Assembly (NCBI RefSeq): GCF_958301595.1 | Contig: NZ_CATQJU010000001.1 | Span: 248,001 to 312,000, forward strand | Direction: 5' to 3' | From: Porphyromonas vaginalis | GTDB lineage: Bacteria; Bacteroidota; Bacteroidia; Bacteroidales; Porphyromonadaceae | DNA length: 64,000 bases | Shown: positions 6,492 through 60,535 of the stretch, piece by piece | Position numbering within the stretch: the first letter of the stretch is position 1 | Layout of the letters: the number at the start of each line of letters is the position of its first letter | Position numbers and translations under genes: made by a program | Notes under the pieces: model-generated | Seen by the model: only the letters and a program-made list of their open reading frames with translations | Database searches by the model: none | Told to the model about the DNA's origin: nothing

Positions 6492-6620
6492 CGGTTGGTG
6501 GTTGGCTATTGGCTGTTAGCTGTTGGCTATTAGCTAGAGCCACTAAAAACACTAGAGCCACTAGAAACTAGACTCTAACCTCTAACCTCTAATCTCTCCT
6601 CCCCCTAACCTCTAATTTCG
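6492..6620. repeat. Short-period spacer (period 8 then period 7) before the alaS promoter
   Basis: Degenerate TTGGCTGTTAGC-type repeats (period about 8) run from about 6495 to 6535. A CTAGAGCCACTA-type stretch follows, then CTCTAAC/CTCTAAT heptamers up to the alaS promoter box at 6621. Similar strings occur at 20935-21075, 28300-28395, 29140-29240, 42340-42480, 55870-55935 and 60570-61010. Confidence 0.7.
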
Positions 6621-20924: not shown

Positions 20925-21079
20925 GAAATAGAGATTAGAGGCTAGAGATTAGAAGTTAGAGAGCGGAGTGATCGGAGCCATCGGAGCTATCAGAGCTATC
21001 AGAACCATCGGAACTCTAACTTCTAACCTCTAAGCTCTAATCTCTAACCTCTAATCTCTAACCTCTAATCTCTAATTTC
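20925..21079. repeat. Short-period spacer between the fimbrial operon and dgt
   Basis: Heptamers of the GATTAGAGGCTAGA type flank a period-9 run (GGAGCCATC, GGAGCTATC, AGAGCTATC and similar) at about 20958-21015. A second heptamer run reaches almost to the dgt stop. There is no gene. Confidence 0.65.
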
Positions 21080-22426
21080 TCAGATCGCTGGGAGGCTCAT
21101 GCCGGTGATGCGTCGGTAGAGGTCTAGCGCGTAGGGATCGGTCATGCCGGAGATGTAGTCGAGCGTGCACTGGAGCTTGCCGTAGATCGACTCTTCGTGC
21201 AGGTTGTACTGACTACTCACCAGCGAGAGGAGCGTACGACTATACGCATCATCAGGATGTAGGAGCGATTGCATCAGTTTGTCGATCAGCTCAGAGAAGA
21301 TCCGATGCCCCGCCAGCTCTACGTCTATCACCGCTCGCGCCGTGTAGATCTCACTCTGCGCCACCTCGCTATTGGCTCGGTAAGCTGCATAGAGCCTCTC
21401 GGGCATTCGACTAACCAGCGTCCCCGCAAAAGCACCACACAGTATCTCCTCCTCATGCTCTATGAAGACCTCGGCACACGCCTCCACGAGGATATTGATC
21501 GCCTTGGCTCTCAGGTAAGCGATCCGCTCGTTGCGGTCGCCGATAGTCTCCAGCGTTGCCAGCGCATGGTCGTGACCATCTGCGGGGAAGTAGCGCAGGA
21601 GCAGATCCACCGTACGCTCGTAGCTCAAGATACGCAGCTTATATGCATCCTCCACATCCATCACCTGATAGCATATATCGTCGGCGGCCTCCACGAGGTA
21701 GACCAGCGGGTGACGCACGTAGTGCCCCGTGGCGGGATCTACGGGCAGGATGCCTAGGTAGTTCGCCACATCGAGGTAGGCTGCCTGCTCCGACTGGAAA
21801 TAGCCGAACTTTCCGCTCTCAGGCGCCCTAGCCGACGACCAGGGGTACTTGACAATAGCTGCCAGTGTGGTGTAGGTTAAAGCAAAGCCCCCAGGGCGGC
21901 GCCCCTCAAACTGATGGGTCAGCAGGCGAAAGCCATTGGCATTACCCTCGAAATAAGCGAAGTCCTCCCACGAGTGCCCCTCCCCTACTACGGCATCATA
22001 CCATTGGCGACCGTTGCCCTCGGTAAAGTAAGCCCGGATCGCCCGCTCGCCACTGTGCCCGAAGGGAGGATTGCCCATATCGTGTGCCAGACAGGCCGCC
22101 GAGACGACCGTAGCGATGCTCCCCCGATGAGGCGTATCCTGGTTGTCCGTCAGGCGGCTCGCTATATAGTTGCCCAGACTACGCCCCACGCAGCTCACCT
22201 CCAGACTATGCGTCAGACGGTTGTGCACGAAGATACTCTTCGGCAGCGGGAAGATCTGCGCTTTGTTTTGTAGCCTGCGAAATGGTGCCGAGAAGATCAG
22301 ACGATCGTAGTCCCGGTCAAACTCCGTACGCATCTCCATGCCCCCACCTAGTGCGCCAGCTCGCACAGGCTCTGGCGCTCCAAAGCGTCGGTTAGAGATC
22401 AGCTGATCCCAATTCATCCTACTCAT
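21080..22426 (-). CDS. dgt: Deoxyguanosinetriphosphate triphosphohydrolase (dGTPase)
   Basis: This 448-residue HD-domain enzyme hydrolyses dGTP to deoxyguanosine and triphosphate, so it adjusts dNTP pools. The substrate and metal-site region is visible as FSAPFRRLQNKAQIFPL, VHNRLTHSLEVS and HDMGNPPFGHSGE. It starts 17 bp after radA and is the last gene of an amidinotransferase-radA-dgt run. The pairing with radA suggests a shared link to DNA maintenance, but that is inference. Confidence 0.92.
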   Translation of the reverse strand: MSRMNWDQLISNRRFGAPEPVRAGALGGGMEMRTEFDRDYDRLIFSAPFRRLQNKAQIFPLPKSIFVHNRLTHSLEVSCVGRSLGNYIASRLTDNQDTPHRGSIATVVSAACLAHDMGNPPFGHSGERAIRAYFTEGNGRQWYDAVVGEGHSWEDFAYFEGNANGFRLLTHQFEGRRPGGFALTYTTLAAIVKYPWSSARAPESGKFGYFQSEQAAYLDVANYLGILPVDPATGHYVRHPLVYLVEAADDICYQVMDVEDAYKLRILSYERTVDLLLRYFPADGHDHALATLETIGDRNERIAYLRAKAINILVEACAEVFIEHEEEILCGAFAGTLVSRMPERLYAAYRANSEVAQSEIYTARAVIDVELAGHRIFSELIDKLMQSLLHPDDAYSRTLLSLVSSQYNLHEESIYGKLQCTLDYISGMTDPYALDLYRRITGMSLPAI

Positions 22427-28027: not shown

Positions 28028-28486
28028 ACAATAATTTAGAGCAGACTACATATCGATACAACGCTATGTCGGGGAAAACTGATTTCCACGTGGATATTTC
28101 GAAATCTCCACGTGGAGAATAAAAAATTCTTCGGAGGAATGAAATGAAACTTCGGAAGAATCAAATGAAACTTCGGAGGAATCAAAACGCCCCCACGTGG
28201 AAAATAAAAAATATCCATGTGGAGATTTGAGACTTTCCACGTGGATATTCGAGAAAGGAGGGGATCGGACGAATTTCCCCGTAAAGATATGTAAATAGAG
28301 ATTAGAGGTTAGAAGTTAGAGATCCGATCACTCTGATAGCTCCGATGGTTCCGATAGCTAACAGCCAATAGCTAACAGCCAACAGCCAATCCATGGTTGA
28401 CACATTATATATAGTGACCTCATTGATGCCTCGATTGTCGCTCATGTGTAGCTTCTGACAGAGCGATTATAGTGCGTCAGCCCTGA
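28028..28486 (+). mobile_element. Composite repeat, copy 1 (array class A + short-period spacers + ISAs1-like end)
   Basis: It begins near ACAATAATTTAGAGC and runs through the 173-bp palindromic array (28086-28258), a conserved GATCGGACGAATTTCCCCGT segment, period-7, -9 and -8 repeats, a CCATGGTTGACACATTATATATAGTG segment (in parts), and ends in TGCGTCAGCCCTGA. Copies 2 and 3 lie at 42248-42750 (inverted) and 60304-61104. It carries no gene. Non-autonomous mobilisation by an ISAs1-type transposase is inferred from the right end. Confidence 0.7.
28086..28258 (+). repeat. Palindromic-unit array, class A, copy 1
   Basis: Eight tandem units of 22 or 21 bp are visible. Units 1, 2 and 6-8 start CCACGTGG (one is CCATGTGG); units 3-5 start TTCGGAGGAA or TTCGGAAGAA. 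The order is A A B B B A A A and the total length exactly 173 bp. Confidence 0.9.
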
Positions 28487-29138: not shown

Positions 29139-29244
29139 CTGGTTGGCTGTTAGCCATTAGCTAGGGACACTAGTGCTACTAGGATCTAACTTCTAACCTC
29201 TAATCTCTAACCTCTATCTCCCTCCCCCTCTAATCTCTTTTTCG

Positions 29245-31166: not shown

Positions 31167-32714
31167 ATGAGTAGCCGCATCAAAAGTCTCTTTAAGGATA
31201 CCGTCATCTACGGAGCAACGACCATGCTTAGTCGTTTCCTCGGCTGGGCACTCTTCCCACTCTATGTGTATCAGCTGCCCTCGCCTGCCGACTACGGTAT
31301 CGTGACCAATCTGTATGCGTGGGTAGCCCTGCTCCTGATCCTCCTAACGTATGGAATGGAGACGGGCTTCTTCCGCTTTAGCCGTGAGGGTGACGGGCGC
31401 AAGGTGTATGCCAATAGTTTGCGTACGCTAGGCACCAGTTCGCTGCTCTTCCTCGTCTTGGGCTTGCTCTTCGTCAAGCCGATCGGAGCAGCTCTCGGAT
31501 ATGCGGACATGCTGCGCCCCGTGGCGATGCTCATTGTGATCGTGGCGATCGATGCCTTCACCAGTATCCCCTTTGCTTATCTGCGCTACACCAATCAAGC
31601 CTTGCGCTATGGCTTGATCAAGATCGGCTACGTACTCCTGACGGTGGCGCTCAACCTCTTCTTCCTATTGGTCTGCCCTTGGCTCCAGAGGGTGGCTCCC
31701 GGAGCGGTCAACTGGTGGTACGAACCTGGGCTAGGTGTCGAGTATATCTTCCTCTCGAACATGATCGCCAATATCATCCTCCTACTGGTCTTGATCCCCA
31801 TTATGAAGCAGGCGCGTGGCGGAGGTCGCTTCGACTGGGGGCTACTTCGCCGCATGCTCCACTACTCGCTGCCGATGGTCTTGCTCGGCATCGCGGGCAA
31901 CTTCAACAAGATGGCGGACAAGATCATCTTCCCCTTGCTCTTTGAGGATCAAACCTTTGCCAATACACAGCTTGGCATCTATAGTGCGGGGTACAAGATA
32001 GCGGTCGTCATCGTCATGTTTACACAAGCCTTCCGCTTTGCTTACGAGCCCTTTATCTTCCAGCGAGGCAAGGAGGGCGAACTCACGGCAGACGAAGAGG
32101 CAGCCGCAGAGCGCGAGCGACGCATCACCTATGCGAAAGCAATGCACTACTACCTGCTCTCGGCGATCTTTATCTACGTCGCCGTGATGTGCTACCTCGA
32201 CCTGCTCAAGGTGCTGATCAGTCCCGCCTACTACGACGGGCTACAGGTCGTACCCTACGTGATGCTCGGGGAGGTACTCTTCGGCATCTACTACAATCTA
32301 TCGCTCTGGTACAAGCTGACCGACCGCACCTACTGGGGTGGCATCATCTCCACGGCCGGCTGTCTGCTCACGGTGGCGATCATCGTGTGGGGCGCACCGC
32401 ACTGGGGCTTTATGGCGTGTGCCTATGCTTCGGTCGTGAGCAACCTCCTACTGGTCCTCGTCTCCTACTTCCTCGGCCGCAAGTACTACCCCGTACCGTA
32501 CCAACTGGGAGCGACGGCTGGTTATTTCGTCGTGGGTGCCATCGCCGTGGGGCTAGTCTTGTGGATCTATGGTGCAATGCCTGCGATGTGGCTGCGCCTG
32601 CTACTCAGCACCGTGGTCTTAGTCGCACTCACTGGGTATATCGTCTGGCGCGAGCAGCTGGTCAAGGCATTTGCCCCGATCTTACGCCGTCTGCGCCACA
32701 AAGCGGATCGATAA
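31167..32714 (+). CDS. Oligosaccharide/lipopolysaccharide flippase (Wzx/MATE-like)
   Basis: The 515-residue integral membrane protein has about 12-14 hydrophobic segments and the start LFKDTVIYGATTMLSRFLGWALFPLYV (in parts), as in polysaccharide biosynthesis/flippase proteins of the MOP superfamily. It probably flips a lipid-linked glycan across the inner membrane. There are no glycosyltransferase genes next to it, so the glycan is unknown; it stands alone between rnz and a strong terminator, as a housekeeping copy does in related genomes. Confidence 0.82.
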   Translation: MSSRIKSLFKDTVIYGATTMLSRFLGWALFPLYVYQLPSPADYGIVTNLYAWVALLLILLTYGMETGFFRFSREGDGRKVYANSLRTLGTSSLLFLVLGLLFVKPIGAALGYADMLRPVAMLIVIVAIDAFTSIPFAYLRYTNQALRYGLIKIGYVLLTVALNLFFLLVCPWLQRVAPGAVNWWYEPGLGVEYIFLSNMIANIILLLVLIPIMKQARGGGRFDWGLLRRMLHYSLPMVLLGIAGNFNKMADKIIFPLLFEDQTFANTQLGIYSAGYKIAVVIVMFTQAFRFAYEPFIFQRGKEGELTADEEAAAERERRITYAKAMHYYLLSAIFIYVAVMCYLDLLKVLISPAYYDGLQVVPYVMLGEVLFGIYYNLSLWYKLTDRTYWGGIISTAGCLLTVAIIVWGAPHWGFMACAYASVVSNLLLVLVSYFLGRKYYPVPYQLGATAGYFVVGAIAVGLVLWIYGAMPAMWLRLLLSTVVLVALTGYIVWREQLVKAFAPILRRLRHKADR

Positions 32715-32732
32715 AAGCCCGTAAGGTCATAG

Positions 32733-32780
32733 AGAGAAGGCTCAATCGCTACACAAAAGCGGTTGAGCCTTCTCTTTTTT
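32733..32780 (+). terminator. Terminator after the flippase gene
   Basis: AGAGAAGGCTCAATCGCT pairs with AGCGGTTGAGCCTTCTCT (one mismatch region), followed by TTTTTT. It is a strong intrinsic terminator. Confidence 0.9.
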
Positions 32781-32904
32781 GCAGTCTAAGCTCCTTTCAC
32801 TACAAAGGCATCTGTAGCTTATGTCGCAAGCCACAGCGGAGCTAAGACCGTTTGAAGCGGATTACCGAAACATTCGTATCGCACTGAACTTATGTCACAT
32901 ACGA

Positions 32905-33026
32905 GTTCCAAAACTTGTTCCACTCTTGGAACTTTTTAGTTCCAAGGGGGGAACTCTTCAGTTCCAACGGAGGAACTTTTTAGTTCCAAGGGAGGAACTT
33001 TTCGGTTCCAAGGGAGGAATCCGAGA
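32905..33026 (+). repeat. Palindromic-unit array, class B
   Basis: A 12-bp partial unit is followed by five perfectly phased 22-bp units starting at 32917, 32939, 32961, 32983 and 33005. Each has an inverted repeat GTTCC...GGAAC (for example GTTCCAAGGGAGGAAC) and a T-rich 6-bp linker. It lies upstream of the promoter at 33066. The remaining spacer 32781-32904 shows nothing I recognise. Confidence 0.9.
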
Positions 33027-33065
33027 GAATGTGGCTCAATATTGCCAAGGAGTCAAAGAATTCAC

Positions 33066-33073
33066 TATCTTTG
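33066..33073 (+). promoter_or_regulatory. Promoter -7 box of the gene at 33166
   Basis: TATCTTTG fits TAnnTTTG and implies a leader of about 85 nt. This supports the start at 33166 rather than translation through the palindromic array. Confidence 0.6.
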
Positions 33074-33165
33074 TGTATCCACACGGGAGGAGTGTCGCAA
33101 CAAGCTACGAGCTTGGCAGGCCGCCCGTAACATACAGTTTACATACCTATATAGACAGATTGATT

Positions 33166-34080
33166 ATGATTAATGATTTCGCAAGTTGGCTGACACCAGG
33201 CCAGAGTGTTCTTATCGTATCGAAGGATAGATCCTTCAGAGGCACCTTCCAAGCAGTTTGTGGCGACTACATAGTCCTCGAGAGTCGTCGTGGTGACCAG
33301 CACTTCATCCGTGAGGAGCTGATCGAGTCCTTTACGGTTTACAACAGGAGAGAGAGGACTGCTAACAGAGAGACAGAGGCTATCGACGAAGAGATGCCAC
33401 TGACCGAAGCAAGTAGCGAGACGACGCAGTCAGACGAGGAGGCGATAGAGAGCTTGCTCGCCCCGCTCGAAGGCGCGATAGACAAGGACAAGCCCTACAT
33501 GTACAAGCCTGGCGATCGCATCCCGCTACCTAATAAAAATCAGCTCAAGTCGCATGCCTCTAGACAACAGAAGTCGGGGCCTAATCGATACCCGCGCAAC
33601 TCTGCCGACAAACCTACCCTAAGCGAAATCCTAGACGAGATAGAGGCTAATGAGGATCGCAGTGTGATACCTGCCGAAGACCTCCTCTTAGTACGTCCCG
33701 CAGGAACGATCAAGATGCGGGAAAACATGAAGAAATACGGCTTTATCGAGGCTTTTGATGAGGAGAAGACAAACTACTGGTTCCCCTTTAATACACTGAC
33801 CGACGAAGACCTCAGCGTGACGGACGAGGTGGTCTTTTGCAAAGGGTCAAACGAGAAGGGCTTCACCGCCAGCGGTATCGCTTCGCCAGGCACCATACAC
33901 CGTCTGCTACTCCTCGTGGATCATATCTTGACGACGAGATACTACAACTTCCCGATCGTGCTACCGCTCCTCGAGGCAATGCTGGAGCAGTACCCAGAAA
34001 ACAAGAGCATCCAGGATAAGTATCAGGAGGTCAAGGAGAGACAGGAGAGCTACAGCAAGCGCAAGGGCAGTGCTGAGTGA
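33166..34080 (+). CDS. Putative nucleic-acid-binding protein (Sm-like plus cold-shock-like regions)
   Basis: The frame is open from 32821, but the first part is repeat DNA upstream of a promoter, so I start at the ATG at 33166 (304 residues). An N-terminal part (residues 1-50) GQSVLIVSKDRSFRGTFQAV...DYIVLESRRG...IREELIESFTVY has the beta-strand rhythm of an Sm/Tudor-like barrel. A middle acidic, low-complexity linker follows. The segment GTIKMRENMKKYGFIEAFD...YWFPFNTL...TDEVVFCKG...KGFTASGI (about 185-245) resembles a cold-shock domain. A helical, charged tail closes the protein. RNA binding is inference only; I do not know a named family. Confidence 0.6.
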   Translation: MINDFASWLTPGQSVLIVSKDRSFRGTFQAVCGDYIVLESRRGDQHFIREELIESFTVYNRRERTANRETEAIDEEMPLTEASSETTQSDEEAIESLLAPLEGAIDKDKPYMYKPGDRIPLPNKNQLKSHASRQQKSGPNRYPRNSADKPTLSEILDEIEANEDRSVIPAEDLLLVRPAGTIKMRENMKKYGFIEAFDEEKTNYWFPFNTLTDEDLSVTDEVVFCKGSNEKGFTASGIASPGTIHRLLLLVDHILTTRYYNFPIVLPLLEAMLEQYPENKSIQDKYQEVKERQESYSKRKGSAE

Positions 34081-40630: not shown

Positions 40631-40784
40631 GGAGACTGTTGCATAAAGGCGAATCGCTGTGTTGCTTTCGGGATTCGGCTTCGGTCACATACGGAGGTAT
40701 GTGAGCTTCAGACCTCACCCTCAGCGCCTTGCGCTTCATCCTTTCTGCAAAGCCTAGACAATCTTGCAAGCAAGATTGTGAGAC
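40631..40784 (-). mobile_element. MITE-like element, inverted and truncated copy
   Basis: It is a near-identical inverse of 50499-50675 over about 150 bp, including the GAGACTGTTGCA end, the CCGAATCCCGAAAGCAACACAG segment (in parts) and the ACAATCTTGC/GCAAGATTGT stem. It lacks the other outer GAGACTGTTGCAAAAGTCAAC end. It lies between addA and its terminator. Confidence 0.75.
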
Positions 40785-42247: not shown

Positions 42248-42750
42248 CAGGCTGACGCATGATAATCACTCTGTCAGGAGCTTCACATAAGGACGATCGA
42301 TGCATCAATGAGGTCACTATATATATAATGTGTCAACCATGGATTGGCTGTTGGCTGTTAGCTGTTGGCTGTTAGCTGTTGGCTGTTAGCTATTGGCTGT
42401 TAGCTATCGGAACCATCGGAGCTATCAGAGTGATCGGATCTCTAACCTCTAATCTCTAACTTCTAACCTCTAATCTCTATTTACATATCTTTACGGGGAA
42501 ATTCGTCTGATCCCCTCCTTTCTCGAATATCCACGTGGGAAATCTCAAATCTCCACGTGGATATTTTTCTTTTTCCACGTGGGGGCGTTTTGATTCCTCC
42601 GAAGTTTCATTTCATTCCTCCGAAGTTTCATTTGATTCCTCCGAAGAATTTTTTATTCTCCACGTGGGCATTTCGAAATATCCACGTGGAAATCACTTTT
42701 CCACGACACGATTCCGTTTCGATATATAGTCGGCTCTAAATTATTGTTGC
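42248..42750 (-). mobile_element. Composite repeat, copy 2 (inverted)
   Basis: The same module order as 28028-28486 is seen on the minus strand: ISAs1-like end at 42248-42265, ATATATATAGTG segment, a longer period-8 run (42340-42410), period-9, heptamers, the GGAAATTCGTCTGATCCCC segment, and the 173-bp array at 42517-42689. It lies between divergent rpsF and pstS. Confidence 0.7.
42517..42689 (-). repeat. Palindromic-unit array, class A, copy 2
   Basis: Eight units of 22/21 bp, read on the minus strand in the order A A B B B A A A as in copy 1, again exactly 173 bp. Five CCACGTGG cores and three TTCGGAGGAA cores are present. The rest of the spacer, 42751-42990, holds GCCGTAA repeats near 42865 and 42900 of unclear meaning and the pstS upstream region. 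Confidence 0.9.
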
Positions 42751-48414: not shown

Positions 48415-50235
48415 ATGAGTCAGTACAACTATAAGTCCAAAGTCCTTATCTCCGCAGCCCTACTCTTTATCCTCTTTGGCGGGATCATCTACTTCGTACA
48501 GCGCGCCTCCGAAAAGGAGATCAAGACCAAAGCACTCGTATCATACCTCGAGCAGGCCGCCGACTGTGTCGATAGTTACATAGCGGACTACGAAGCTCAC
48601 CCGCAGGTGCCAGGGCGTGACTCGCTCTCAGCCTTTAGCAACTGGCCTGATCAGAAGAATCTAGGGCACTTCTTATCCTACCTCCCGGACAATCTACGCT
48701 TTACGATCATCAACCTAAAGGGCGACGTCTACTTTGACAACGTCACCCAAGGGCCAATCCCTGAGAACCACCTCTCACGCGTAGAGCTACAGCAGGCCAA
48801 CCTCAATGGCACAGGCACCTCCAAGCGGTATAGCGAGACGCTCCGTGAGGACTTCTACTACTTTGCCAAGCAGTACAAAGATCAGGGGTACTACATCCGT
48901 GTAGCTATACCCTACCATATAGACTATGTCAATTACTTTCGCTCCAATCACTTCTTCCTCCTCCTCATCGTTGGCATCTTCAGCCTAGCACTGCTGGCGG
49001 TGGTCTTCTTTACCGACCAATTCTCTCGCTCGGTGCGTAAGCTTCACGACTTTGTAGCGAAGGCGCAGGCTGGTGAGGAGTACGAGTCTGTCACTTTTCC
49101 CAAGAGTGAGATCGGAGAGCTAGGAGAGCAGCTCAAGAAGATCTTTAAGATGCTCGAAGAGAGCAATACCCGCTACGAGATCGAGCGCGAGAAGCTCATA
49201 CAGCACTTCGCTAGCTCCGACGCTGGCATCTCTTTCTTTAGTGCGGAGAGCAAGTTTATCTATGCCAATAGCCACTTCATACAGAATCTCAACACCCTCG
49301 TCGACACCCCTACCTTTATCATCGACGAGCGCATCCTCGACTACCCTGAGCTTTACCAGGTCAAGACGCTTCTAGCCGACCAAGAGGCTCGCCCAGGTGC
49401 CGCTCCTCGCTCCACACGATACATCATCGACAAGGATGGGTCGCACATAGAGGTGCGCGCCCAGTTCTTCCCGGACAATAGCTTTGAGATCGTCCTGACC
49501 AATGTGACTAAGAAGGAAAACGATCGTCGCCTCAAGCACGACATGACCAATAGCATCGCCCACGAGCTACGCACGCCGGTCACTTGCGCCCGTGGTTACC
49601 TCGAGACAATACTCAACCAGCCACTCCCTGAGGAGAAGCAGCGCTACTTCATCGAGCGGACGTACAATCAGATGATCCGTCTCTCACAGCTCATCAGCGA
49701 CGTCTCTATGATCACCAAGCTGGAGGAGGCGAGCGACCTCTACGCCCTGCAGGAGCTAACCCCGTACAGTGTCGTCGAGGAGGTCAAAGCAGCCCTAGAG
49801 ATCAAGCTACAAGAGGCGCAGATGACCGTCTGCAATCGAATACCCGAGCAGACCACCGTACAGGCCAATCACTCGCTACTCTATGCTGTCTTTGCCAATC
49901 TAACGGAGAATAGCATCCGCTACGCTGGCTCTGGCACCACTATAGAGATCGATCAGACGATGGAGGACGAGCACTACTACTACTTCACCTTTGCCGACAA
50001 CGGACCTGGCATCCCCGAGAGCGAGAGCCTGGCTAAGATCTTCGACCGCTTCTACCGCATCGATGAGGGTCGCAGTCGGGAGATGGGCGGATCAGGACTG
50101 GGCCTCTCCATCGTACGCAATGCTATCCGCTTCCACGGTGGCGAAATCTCAGCAAAGAACAGACCCACGGGAGGTCTCGAGTTCTTCTTCTCGCTAGCCA
50201 AGAGCACCCCCGACAAGACAGCCCAAGCGCACTAG
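48415..50235 (+). CDS. PhoR-like sensor histidine kinase
   Basis: The 606-residue kinase has an N-terminal membrane segment (about residues 10-28), a periplasmic domain, a second segment (about 178-200), a HAMP/PAS-like region (200-370), and a HisKA box with the phospho-His in SIAHELRTPVT. The ATPase domain shows NSIRYAGSG, DNGPGIPES, FDRFYRIDEGRSREMGGSGLGLSIV (in parts). It follows the response regulator by 42 bp. With a large extracellular domain it may sense more than the PstSCAB state, but that is inference. Confidence 0.9.
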   Translation: MSQYNYKSKVLISAALLFILFGGIIYFVQRASEKEIKTKALVSYLEQAADCVDSYIADYEAHPQVPGRDSLSAFSNWPDQKNLGHFLSYLPDNLRFTIINLKGDVYFDNVTQGPIPENHLSRVELQQANLNGTGTSKRYSETLREDFYYFAKQYKDQGYYIRVAIPYHIDYVNYFRSNHFFLLLIVGIFSLALLAVVFFTDQFSRSVRKLHDFVAKAQAGEEYESVTFPKSEIGELGEQLKKIFKMLEESNTRYEIEREKLIQHFASSDAGISFFSAESKFIYANSHFIQNLNTLVDTPTFIIDERILDYPELYQVKTLLADQEARPGAAPRSTRYIIDKDGSHIEVRAQFFPDNSFEIVLTNVTKKENDRRLKHDMTNSIAHELRTPVTCARGYLETILNQPLPEEKQRYFIERTYNQMIRLSQLISDVSMITKLEEASDLYALQELTPYSVVEEVKAALEIKLQEAQMTVCNRIPEQTTVQANHSLLYAVFANLTENSIRYAGSGTTIEIDQTMEDEHYYYFTFADNGPGIPESESLAKIFDRFYRIDEGRSREMGGSGLGLSIVRNAIRFHGGEISAKNRPTGGLEFFFSLAKSTPDKTAQAH

Positions 50236-50291: not shown

Positions 50292-50423
50292 TTTCCAACC
50301 TTGGAAAACAAAGTTTCCAGCGTTGGAAAGGAAAGTTTCCAACCTTGGAAAAAGATATTTCCTCCCTTGGAAAAAGAAGTTTCCTCCCTTGGAAAACTAT
50401 TTTTCCAAGGGAGGAGACGTTTT
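50292..50423 (+). repeat. Palindromic-unit array, class C
   Basis: Six perfectly phased 22-bp units start at 50292, 50314, 50336, 50358, 50380 and 50402. Cores are TTTCCAACCTTGGAAA, TTTCCAGCGTTGGAAA, TTTCCTCCCTTGGAAA and, last, TTTCCAAGGGAGGA. A GATCCGAC segment follows, similar to the GATCGGAC that follows the class A arrays. It lies between phoR and the MITE. Confidence 0.9.
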
Positions 50424-50498: not shown

Positions 50499-50675
50499 GG
50501 AGACTGTTGCAAAAGTCAACAGTCTCACAATCTTGCTCGCAAGATTGTCTAGACTTTGCAGAAAGGATGAAGCGCAAGGCGCTAAGGGTGAGGTCTGAAG
50601 GGAGCATACCTCCGTATGTGACCGAGGCCGAATCCCGAAAGCAACACAGCGATTCGCCTTTATGCAACAGTCTCT
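50499..50675 (+). mobile_element. MITE-like element with GAGACTGTTGCA ends
   Basis: It is about 177 bp with terminal inverted repeats GAGACTGTTGCA (50500-50511) and TGCAACAGTCTC (50663-50674). It holds no gene, has an internal perfect stem ACAATCTTGC/GCAAGATTGT (50527-50548) and a left-end hairpin. An inverted, one-end-less copy lies at 40631-40784; solo ends lie at 11532-11558 and about 59131-59145. Confidence 0.75.
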
Positions 50676-50710: not shown

Positions 50711-51562
50711 CTAGAGCAGGTGACGCTCAGCGTGGTAAGAGGAGCGCACCAGAGGACCGCTCTCCACATGGCGGAAGCCTTTGTCTAGAGCTATCTCCCG
50801 TAGCTCGGCAAAGCGGTCAGGATGCACATACTCCTGCACGGGATAGTGGCGACGAGTGGGCTGGAGATATTGACCGAGCGTGAGGATGCTACAGTCCACC
50901 TGACGCAGATCGTCCATCGTCTCGAGGATCTCCTCCTGCGTCTCGCCTAGACCGAGCATCAGCCCCGTCTTAGCGGGTAGCCCCGCCTCAGCAATCTGTG
51001 CCAAGACGGAGAGACTGCAGTCATAAGTAGCTCGGCTGCGTACCACAGGCGTGAGCCGTCGCACGGTCTCCATATTGTGCGCCACCACCTCGGGGCGCTC
51101 CTCTAGGATCGGCGCAATGAGCTCTGCCTGCCCGTCGAAGTCGGGTATCAGCACCTCGATCGTAACGCCAGGGCACAGCTCACGTATCTGTCGTATTGTC
51201 TCGACCCAATGGGCACTGCCCTTGTCGGGCAGGTCGTCACGATCCACACTGGTGACCACCGCATGCTTGAGTCCGAGGGCGCGGACACTCTCAGCGACGT
51301 GACGAGGCTCCGCTGGATCTAGCGGTAGCGGGCGACCCGTCTCTGTATTGCAAAACTTACAAGCTCGCGTACAGACCGCACCTCCGATCATAAAGGTGGC
51401 GGTGCCTCGTGACCAGCACTCGCCTTGATTAGGACAGCGACCGCTCGTGCAGATGGTGTGCAGGCAATGCTTCTGCAGCACCGCACGCGTCTCGTCGTAG
51501 GTTACATCGCTACCAAGCTTGATCTTGAGCCACTCAGGCTTACGTATGTGGGGTTGCTTCAT
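50711..51562 (-). CDS. lipA: Lipoyl synthase
   Basis: This 283-residue radical-SAM enzyme inserts sulfur into octanoyl groups of lipoyl-dependent complexes. The auxiliary cluster motif CTSGRCPNQGEC (about residues 38-49) and the radical-SAM motif CTRACKFC (about 64-71) are both intact, and the C-terminal RSSYHAE supplies the Ser ligand. It starts 8 bp after the DPP IV gene and may be co-transcribed with it. Confidence 0.96.
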   Translation of the reverse strand: MKQPHIRKPEWLKIKLGSDVTYDETRAVLQKHCLHTICTSGRCPNQGECWSRGTATFMIGGAVCTRACKFCNTETGRPLPLDPAEPRHVAESVRALGLKHAVVTSVDRDDLPDKGSAHWVETIRQIRELCPGVTIEVLIPDFDGQAELIAPILEERPEVVAHNMETVRRLTPVVRSRATYDCSLSVLAQIAEAGLPAKTGLMLGLGETQEEILETMDDLRQVDCSILTLGQYLQPTRRHYPVQEYVHPDRFAELREIALDKGFRHVESGPLVRSSYHAERHLL

Positions 51563-53736: not shown

Positions 53737-53780
53737 GGATTAGAGATTAGAAGTTAGAGATTAGAGATTCGAGGCAAGAC

Positions 53781-55867: not shown

Positions 55868-55939
55868 CGAAAAAGAAGTTAGAGGTCAGAAACTAGAGGT
55901 TAGAGGCTGCCCCTAGTGACACTAGTGTATCTGACACGT

Positions 55940-60362: not shown

Positions 60363-60535
60363 CCACGTGGATGTTTCGAAATACCCACGTGGAAAAAGAA
60401 AATTCTCCACGTGGGCGCGAAATAAAACTTCGGAAGAATGAAATGAAACTTCGGAGGAATCAAATGAAACTTCGGAGGAATTTTTTGACGCCCACGTGGA
60501 GATTTGAGATTCCCCACGTGGATATTCGAGAAAGG
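60363..60535 (+). repeat. Palindromic-unit array, class A, copy 3 (permuted)
   Basis: Eight units, total 173 bp, but in the order A A A B B B A A instead of A A B B B A A A. Cores are CCACGTGG (five) and TTCGGAAGAA/TTCGGAGGAA (three). Confidence 0.9.

Follow-up and report, generated by a model that had tools for sequence, protein, structure and literature searches.

Bidirectional intrinsic terminators are normally single hairpins, plasmid iterons and ParR/parC sites are direct repeats that form one replication or partition site and are served by a known protein, and the palindromes of REP/BIME elements are used by mobile elements as targets. In the available passages of one account, REP/BIME elements are described as short extragenic palindromes present in many copies, with proposed roles in termination and mRNA stability (PMC3733652). 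The BrickBuilt element of Porphyromonas gingivalis is a MITE that, according to the accessible part of its description, consists of a leader, tandem short repeats and a tail, is intergenic and is predicted to form stem loops; its 23-nt unit, AGAYCATARTATCCTCTCRTRTG, belongs to an element with 19 copies in ATCC 33277, the unit number varies while the loci are largely common to strains, and the same part of the text reports no BLASTn match beyond P. gingivalis (PMC4596501). A further study, as far as its available text goes, left short repeats (3 to 31 bp) unannotated (PMC5771137). A literature search that reached few subscription journals found no earlier description of the arrays reported below.

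Here we describe such arrays, starting from a 64-kb stretch (hereafter the window; positions 248001-312000 of contig C1) of the 2.52-Mb genome of Porphyromonas vaginalis. The two-unit pattern TTCC-N6-GGAA-N8-TTCC-N6-GGAA has eight matches in the window vs none in 100 dinucleotide shuffles, and TRF assigns period 22 to both of the arrays listed below, which bears out the preliminary description of these arrays as real.

32874..32916, + strand: B-type end of array B, with leader TCGTATCG..CTG....ATACGAG followed by half-site GTTCCAAAA
32917..33018, no strand assigned: class B array, five 22-bp dyad units GTTCC-N6-GGAAC, the last ending in GGAAT
50292..50423, no strand assigned: class C array, six 22-bp dyad units TTTCC-N6-GGAAA
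50382..50429, no strand assigned: C-type end of array C (right side), units 5-6 forming a 15-pair hairpin

The earlier counts of six phased 22-bp units in class C and five in class B both hold, with the qualification that the sixth unit of array C is imperfect (TTTCC-AAGGGA-GGAGA) and that the class B units occupy 32917-33018, the last with the variant ending given above. Array C is flanked by convergent genes, namely a histidine kinase gene (+ strand, 48415-50235) and a radical SAM gene (- strand, 50711-51562). Array B sits between two + strand genes (31167-32714 and 33166-34080); an ORF at 32821-34080 crosses the array, and from the sequence we take its true start to be 33166. Set beside the 24 other B-type ends of the genome and their consensus, array B has a B-end (leader at 32874-32905) and lacks a C-end. 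Close to array C there is also a 175-bp insert (50500-50674) whose ends are GAGACTGTTGCA/TGCAACAGTCTC, with TAGTG as 5-bp direct repeats. It is missing at the equivalent position in P. uenonis (L060), which leaves a clean empty site, and is thus a MITE-like insertion; 40632-40784 holds an inverted relative (95%).

Across the whole genome the two-unit pattern occurs 160 times and its reversed control not at all. The DNA examined here comprises the window and 60 stretches of 20 kb (1.264 Mb, about half of the genome), of which 22 were picked for a listed pattern match and 38 form a contiguous 760-kb block. It holds 45 arrays with 235 units; 187 of the 190 steps between units measure 22 bp and the other three 21 bp. 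When inverted-repeat centres were paired irrespective of arm sequence over ~1.26 Mb, the sole peaks stood at 11, 22, 33, 44 and 55 bp (397, 341, 273, 229 and 189 pairs), against 14-38 pairs at the other distances from 8 to 60 bp and 10-32 in local shuffles. Each unit is built of inverted TTCC...GGAA arms, extended by a fifth pair, around a 6-base loop, and is completed by a linker. The fifth, outer pair is T-A in 104 and G-C in 99 of the 235 units, and is complementary in 205 of them vs 103 expected; the loops, conversely, avoid pairing (33 pairs at the second position from the centre vs 94 expected), and 56 different loops occur among the 212 exact units. The arrays are real, dispersed, constrained and unusually regular.

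Two kinds of end delimit the arrays. B-ends carry the leader TCGTATCG..CTG..T..GTAGTA.ATACGAG, the half-site GTTCCAAAA and, in 15 of 25, the first loop CCTCTT; C-ends carry the half-site TTTTCCAAAA and, in 11 of 15, the first loop AGCCTT. When the 45 arrays were scored with end patterns somewhat looser than those defining these 25 B- and 15 C-ends, 18 had only a B-end, 14 only a C-end, six both and seven neither, and none had two alike. All six two-ended arrays carry one B and one C end, so that classes B and C represent the two unlike ends of a single bipartite family. The element is a chain of 22-bp units with inverted 4-5 bp arms, a variable 6-base loop and A/T-rich linkers, and runs from the B-leader and B-end through B-type and then C-type units to the C-end.

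The same genome contains arrays with other arms, GTTTC-N8-GAAAC and TAGAC-N4-GTCTA, also at 22 bp. Together with the centre peaks at 11-bp multiples, they agree with the earlier remark that different cores share one period. In the class D arrays (C1:1833313, 1864135, 2335050 and 2352440) AGTTTC and AGTGCC half-sites are mixed, and the hybrid unit at 1833313, with one half of each, suggests that 11-bp half-units may behave as modules. The class E array (C1:2068789-2068905, L165:8789-8905) comprises five 22-bp dyads, TAGAC-N4-GTCTA and variants, and lies between an ERF gene and a PD-(D/E)XK gene in an apparent prophage.

The regular repeat spacing, along with the insertion sequences nearby, could bring to mind a CRISPR remnant or a decayed IS, an outcome that had been named in advance as fatal to the idea of a distinct family. 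None of the 45 arrays looks like either. Their alternating parts are 6-base loops of limited alphabet and 8-base linkers that recur at many loci, rather than spacers of ~30 bp, and Rfam at gathering thresholds reports nothing but a tRNA in the window. With respect to a decayed IS, an integrase module (see below) splits an array whose phase returns once the module is removed; mobile elements lie instead in or beside the arrays. We regard the chance that either origin is correct as negligible.

The preliminary description had placed beside these arrays a third class, A, with copies as follows.

28086..28244, + strand: class A copy 1, eight phased cores, in the order CCACGTGG twice, TTC-N4-GAA three times, CCACGTGG-type three times
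42531..42689, - strand: class A copy 2, 8 cores
60363..60521, + strand: class A copy 3, 8 cores, grouped 3 + 3 + 2

Each copy has five CCACGTGG-type and three TTC-N4-GAA cores. The three copies stand as reported; they have eight cores each, with core starts 19-24 bp apart, a looser step than that of B and C. The segment GATCSGAC, said to follow classes A and C, occurs six times in the window vs 5.4 expected and exactly follows just one of the three class A copies; we therefore reject it as a feature common to the classes, its frequency in the window being that of chance. Intergenic heptamer tandem repeats of the CTCTAAC type were also seen (6571-6597, 21012-21080, 29185-29216, 42440-42479 and 53738-53773).

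Class A and the heptamers provide a contrast to the position of the B/C arrays relative to genes, for which crude, longest-ORF gene calls were used. With the 10 of 45 arrays that overlap ORFs dropped, 19 of 35 B/C arrays lie between convergent, 13 between tandem and three between divergent genes; the convergent fraction is 55/288 among all intergenic regions that reach 150 bp or more (p 2e-5 for the B/C excess), 2/29 for class A clusters (11 more that overlap ORFs dropped) and 3/38 for heptamer clusters in the fetched DNA. Compared with class A and heptamers together, the difference gives a Fisher p of 3e-7. The convergent counts of 19/35 vs 2/29 imply that A does not form a single functional set with B/C: class A makes up a dispersed family of its own, with other cores and another genomic position, and the common process formerly suggested for A, B and C finds no support here. 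Partition-type sites, also suggested, are a poor fit with dozens of scattered loci.

In the contiguous 760-kb block, every one of the 15 non-overlapping arrays has a gene 3' end facing it (null 72%); for 60% of them there are two such 3' ends (null 17%), and for 7% a start is found no more than 100 bp away (null 30%). Moreover, of the 16 single-ended arrays between tandem genes, counted by hand, 13 point their defined end at the 3' end of the upstream gene. A different rule applied to all 45 arrays gives 17 convergent, 22 tandem and 6 divergent, which counts against a role in termination. In the loci of other genomes the position test yielded no clear excess; those loci were fetched for their arrays and the null was drawn from the same loci, so that this test is uninformative.

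Folding of the ends points in the same direction as their position. The first two units reach -21.8/-22.1 kcal/mol at B-ends (n=25) vs -5.9 for shuffled sequence and -17.7/-19.0 kcal/mol at C-ends (n=15) vs -4.7, and inner neighbouring unit pairs (n=40) reach -13.4/-14.3 vs -4.6 kcal/mol. B-ends combine a hairpin with a T-tract in both directions, and C-ends have a T-tract outward only, with none reading inward. Terminator-like sites were found at 84% of the 44 gene 3' ends that face arrays and at 50% once the arrays were masked; in controls without arrays the share is 36% for convergent ends (n=90), 27% for tandem ends (n=214) and 5% for shuffles (n=187). The scanned length was 400 bases where arrays were present and 220 where they were absent, a difference that inflates the masked 50% relative to the 36%. 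These percentages indicate that arrays add terminator-like sites and do not replace missing ones; genes facing arrays are no poorer in other terminators, which counts against a role in termination. The earlier suggestion of terminator-like hairpins fits both the array ends, with their strong hairpins beside T-tracts, and the convergent position.

The two arrays of the window illustrate this unevenly. On the + strand of array C the hairpin of units 5-6 is followed by ACG-TTTT-GGAAAC (the half-site), and on the - strand the same hairpin is followed by a T-rich tail; the region has two terminator-like sites vs 0.9 expected in shuffles, and the sole site called for array C is on the - strand, the + strand tail with its four Ts being too weak for a call. 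Inside array B there are three + strand terminator-like sites, with a region total of four vs 0.5 expected. Against termination as the role of array B, its upstream gene has a good terminator of its own (32732-32781, seen in the sequence, with a 9-base loop that exceeds the limits of the terminator scan), and the array lies beyond it.

Taken together with the anatomy, dispersal and arm conservation of the family and with the module junctions considered below, we propose that the B/C arrays are BIME/BrickBuilt-like bidirectional terminator arrays whose units are used as attachment sites by a recombinase module, a reading based on sequence to which we give a probability of roughly 0.42. The outermost two units of each end would fold into one long hairpin beside a T-tract and so halt RNA polymerase coming from either a convergent gene or one upstream; inner units would contribute weaker hairpins, and the arrays would serve as two-way transcription stops at gene ends, with termination as the putative selected function. 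Two further observations count against this proposal. Terminators can do without a strict 22-bp step, and mismatches within units show no G-U strand bias (30 G-T vs 39 A-C, p 0.34), so that no selection on a one-strand RNA hairpin is seen and RNA-level selection, as gauged by this bias, is rejected. In the B-end stems G-T dominates one position and A-C another; these mismatches are largely fixed and hence uninformative on RNA-level selection.

Comparison with relatives reveals constraint on the arms together with turnover of the units. Where P. uenonis records and G001 match the window genome, identity is ~85-95% over much of the DNA, which makes them close relatives of the window species. To compare array ends between this genome and its relatives, we matched them through their aligned outer flanks, and in the first two units of 26 same-type pairs, some of them low-scoring and perhaps paralogous and with one own end able to recur in several pairs, differences amount to 54/312 in loops and 73/384 in linkers, with a flank median of 10%. 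Arms differ at 8/416 positions, a count lowered by unit detection that allowed at most two arm mismatches and that includes one 1-bp deletion, counted in two pairs, as four of the eight differences. For the arrays on the G001 and P. uenonis stretches, a script found syntenic matches in the fetched half of the genome for 8 of 25, all eight from G001, and none for the other 17; in each of the eight syntenic stretches (four of which fall in the unselected 760-kb block) an array is present here with a different number of units. Similarly, array C has six units vs three in its P. uenonis ortholog (L060). The window is without an array at 55889-55936, where P. uenonis (L063) has one, and the empty site is not clean. 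At locus 1302983 a C-type array here corresponds to B-type and hybrid arrays in P. uenonis (L104) and a Porphyromonas MAG (L077), from which it follows that array ends are exchanged. Unit number would shift via recombination or slippage, while selection would keep the arms.

The same data bear on an alternative in which the arrays, like BrickBuilt, are MITE-like elements, selfish or neutral, that contain a minisatellite, and gather between convergent genes simply as a result of survival away from promoters. It draws on the defined leader and ends at scattered loci, on inverted terminal repeats AACAATACCTT around arrays in G360, on the BrickBuilt layout of leader, repeats and tail, as given in the accessible part of its description (PMC4596501), and on the finding, in the available passages, that REPs lie mainly between convergent and unidirectional ORFs (PMC3733652). 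Arm differences that are about nine times fewer than loop differences speak against neutrality, as does the failure of class A and heptamers of the same DNA to gather between convergent genes. Also against it, no recent movement is seen, since 8/8 syntenic G001 arrays were matched here (17 unmatched; 22 of the 60 stretches chosen for arrays). As to terminal repeats, B- and C-ends differ from each other, the inverted repeats being those seen in G360. We consider this origin rather unlikely, although it deserves attention. A RAYT/REP origin was rejected: the Y1 (RAYT-type) transposase PF01797 has no match in the window genome, and 3 of 26 congeneric genomes are positive. REP hairpins have a GTAG or CGTC tag beside them; among the 15 C-ends, inspected by eye, two have GTAG no more than three bases from the half-site.

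Mobile elements meet the arrays at recurrent junctions. The principal one is a module encoding two tyrosine recombinases (int1, 409 aa, and int2, 389 aa), each with Arm-DNA-bind_5 and Phage_integrase domains. In the DNA searched, from four genomes, its left end abuts an array in all 9 copies that have one, three further pieces without a left end being left out: five of five in the window genome (one copy decayed), P. uenonis L046 (the same place as L274) and L124 (a further piece), the decayed G001 copy (L265) and a copy in G078 (L275) at an array with arms of the TTTCCC type. A pattern scan found two right ends, both of which meet array units; when the host flanks are joined through their common GGAA, the 22-bp phase returns, the second having an imperfect next unit. 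The two right-end copies are identical over 3.46 kb, including three left array units, and have different right flanks, their identity indicating one recent duplication. As the units are symmetric and harmlessly placed, we propose that the module uses an array unit as its attachment site. Prevotella brunnea has an int1 piece, 81% identical across 118 residues, at a distance of 193 bp from an array; the left end of the module is unrecognisable there, and the piece is not counted above. An IS-like element with an rve-type transposase (477 aa; the ORF lies beside three of four ends checked) and end GAAGAGGACA also abuts a TTCC-type, class D or class A unit at five of seven ends, counted by hand.

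C1:374629, 1694139, 1892455, 2241191 and 2390761, no strand given: GAAGAGGACA ends at units
1941720 and 2130994, no strand given: GAAGAGGACA ends without an abutting unit

Conceivably, tyrosine recombinases could make and keep the arrays as tandem recombination sites, with the arms as half-sites and the 6-base loop as the exchanged core. The 9/9 module junctions would agree with this, and in an order sample of 393 genomes int1 at ≥75% identity occurs only in G000, G024 and G078, all of which bear arrays, G078 being the only genome outside the genus with more than one TTCC match in the overlapping sample of 392. However, G001 has 71 pattern matches and no int1 match at 1e-60, just the decayed piece; int1 relatives of at most 51% identity have a TTCC array in none of 27 fetched loci (L276-L302); the junctions would put the exchange in the arm GGAAC rather than in the loop; and the module appears to be inserted into older arrays. 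We judge this reading to be very improbable.

The preliminary description would have been undermined by an absence of 22-bp phasing in relatives, and this is not what was seen: 12 of 26 congeneric genomes retain the TTCC pattern at 22 bp, the reversed control being positive in one. Across the order, the pattern is present in 6 of 392 genomes, four of them in the genus, and is thus not order-wide. In the order sample the reversed control gave 44 matches in G360, which represent 22-bp arrays of AAAGG-N6-CCTTT. Of the four examined (C15, C96, C322 and C328), three are flanked by the inverted terminal repeats AACAATACCTT on both sides and the fourth on one side; these arrays look like a MITE built of phased dyads. 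Further 22-bp dyad classes in other Bacteroidales are TGTCC-N8-GGACA and AATAGT-N4-ACTATT. In a GTDB scan, the three-unit pattern was found, among at least 118 stretches, mostly in Porphyromonas, Bacteroides pyogenes, Parabacteroides, Prevotella and rumen Bacteroidales, and, among the matches listed, also at a few alphaproteobacterial, streptomycete, clostridial and other loci. No 22-bp peak was found in 289 kb from five other Bacteroidales (G031, G050, G077, G097 and G099) or in small samples of the congeners G010, G012 and G017.

This recurrence of one step with unrelated arms, for which we know of no mechanism, is one argument for arrays that bind protein, with dimers on dyads two helical turns apart forming a filament that would insulate or compact gene ends, and with arm classes reflecting different or diverged proteins. 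The inverted-repeat centres at 11-bp multiples over 1.26 Mb are consistent with such binding, as are the 22-bp step shared by GTTCC, GTTTC, TAGAC, CCACGTGG (class A, where it is looser), AATAGT (G006), TGTCC (G009, one short array) and AAAGG (G360), the concerted change of both arm halves with no G-U bias, and an array directly upstream of an HU-HIG gene in G006. On the other side, a period of exactly 22 rather than 21 bp would let the helical phase drift over 6-14 units, and duplication of 22-bp units would likewise preserve the step; the window genome, moreover, has one strong and two weak HU-HIG matches with an array chain at none of the three loci, and HU-HIG paralogs are rejected as array partners here for that reason. 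Protein binding is possible, although we lean against it. The dyads of the G006 array (L229:19005-19110), 22 bp apart and with AATAGT...ACTATT arms, stop immediately short of the HU-HIG gene, and autoregulation is possible. The more general notion that one 22-bp-measuring machinery, such as a filament-forming family of DNA-binding proteins or a recombinase system, both builds such arrays at gene ends and maintains them, even as the sequence it recognises drifts, appears doubtful to us.

Returning to the terminator proposal, the window contains two members, B and C, of a scattered family of elements, often placed between convergent genes, that probably act as two-way stops and double as landing sites for a mobile element. 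If so, many convergent gene ends carry multi-unit stops of a kind absent from the literature searched. The arrays would also explain the landing places of a tyrosine-recombinase element and are likely trouble spots for assembly. Furthermore, they offer a testable case of symmetric DNA held at a fixed phase while loops and copy number turn over.

With respect to the known systems, the arrays resemble plasmid iterons and ParR/parC sites in their spacing of ~11 or 22 bp and in arms common to all units, and differ in being inverted units at dozens of loci. They resemble bidirectional terminators in the A-tract, hairpin and T-tract of B-ends, the hairpin and outward T-tract of C-ends and the convergent excess, and differ in that as many as 14 units stand in phase within one array (in G360). 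With REP/BIME elements, as characterized in the passages available, they share short extragenic palindromes mainly in convergent and unidirectional gene gaps; the strict 22-bp step and the defined ends set them apart. BrickBuilt, in the accessible part of its description, is similar in having a leader, tandem repeats and a tail in intergenic DNA (here 35 of 45 arrays are clear of called ORFs, with 25 B- and 15 C-ends), in predicted stem loops and in unit numbers that vary while loci are largely shared. In contrast to AGAYCATARTATCCTCTCRTRTG, in which we saw no dyad, the units described here are TTCC-N6-GGAA dyads at 22 bp, in arrays that have two different ends, favor convergent genes and extend to other species.
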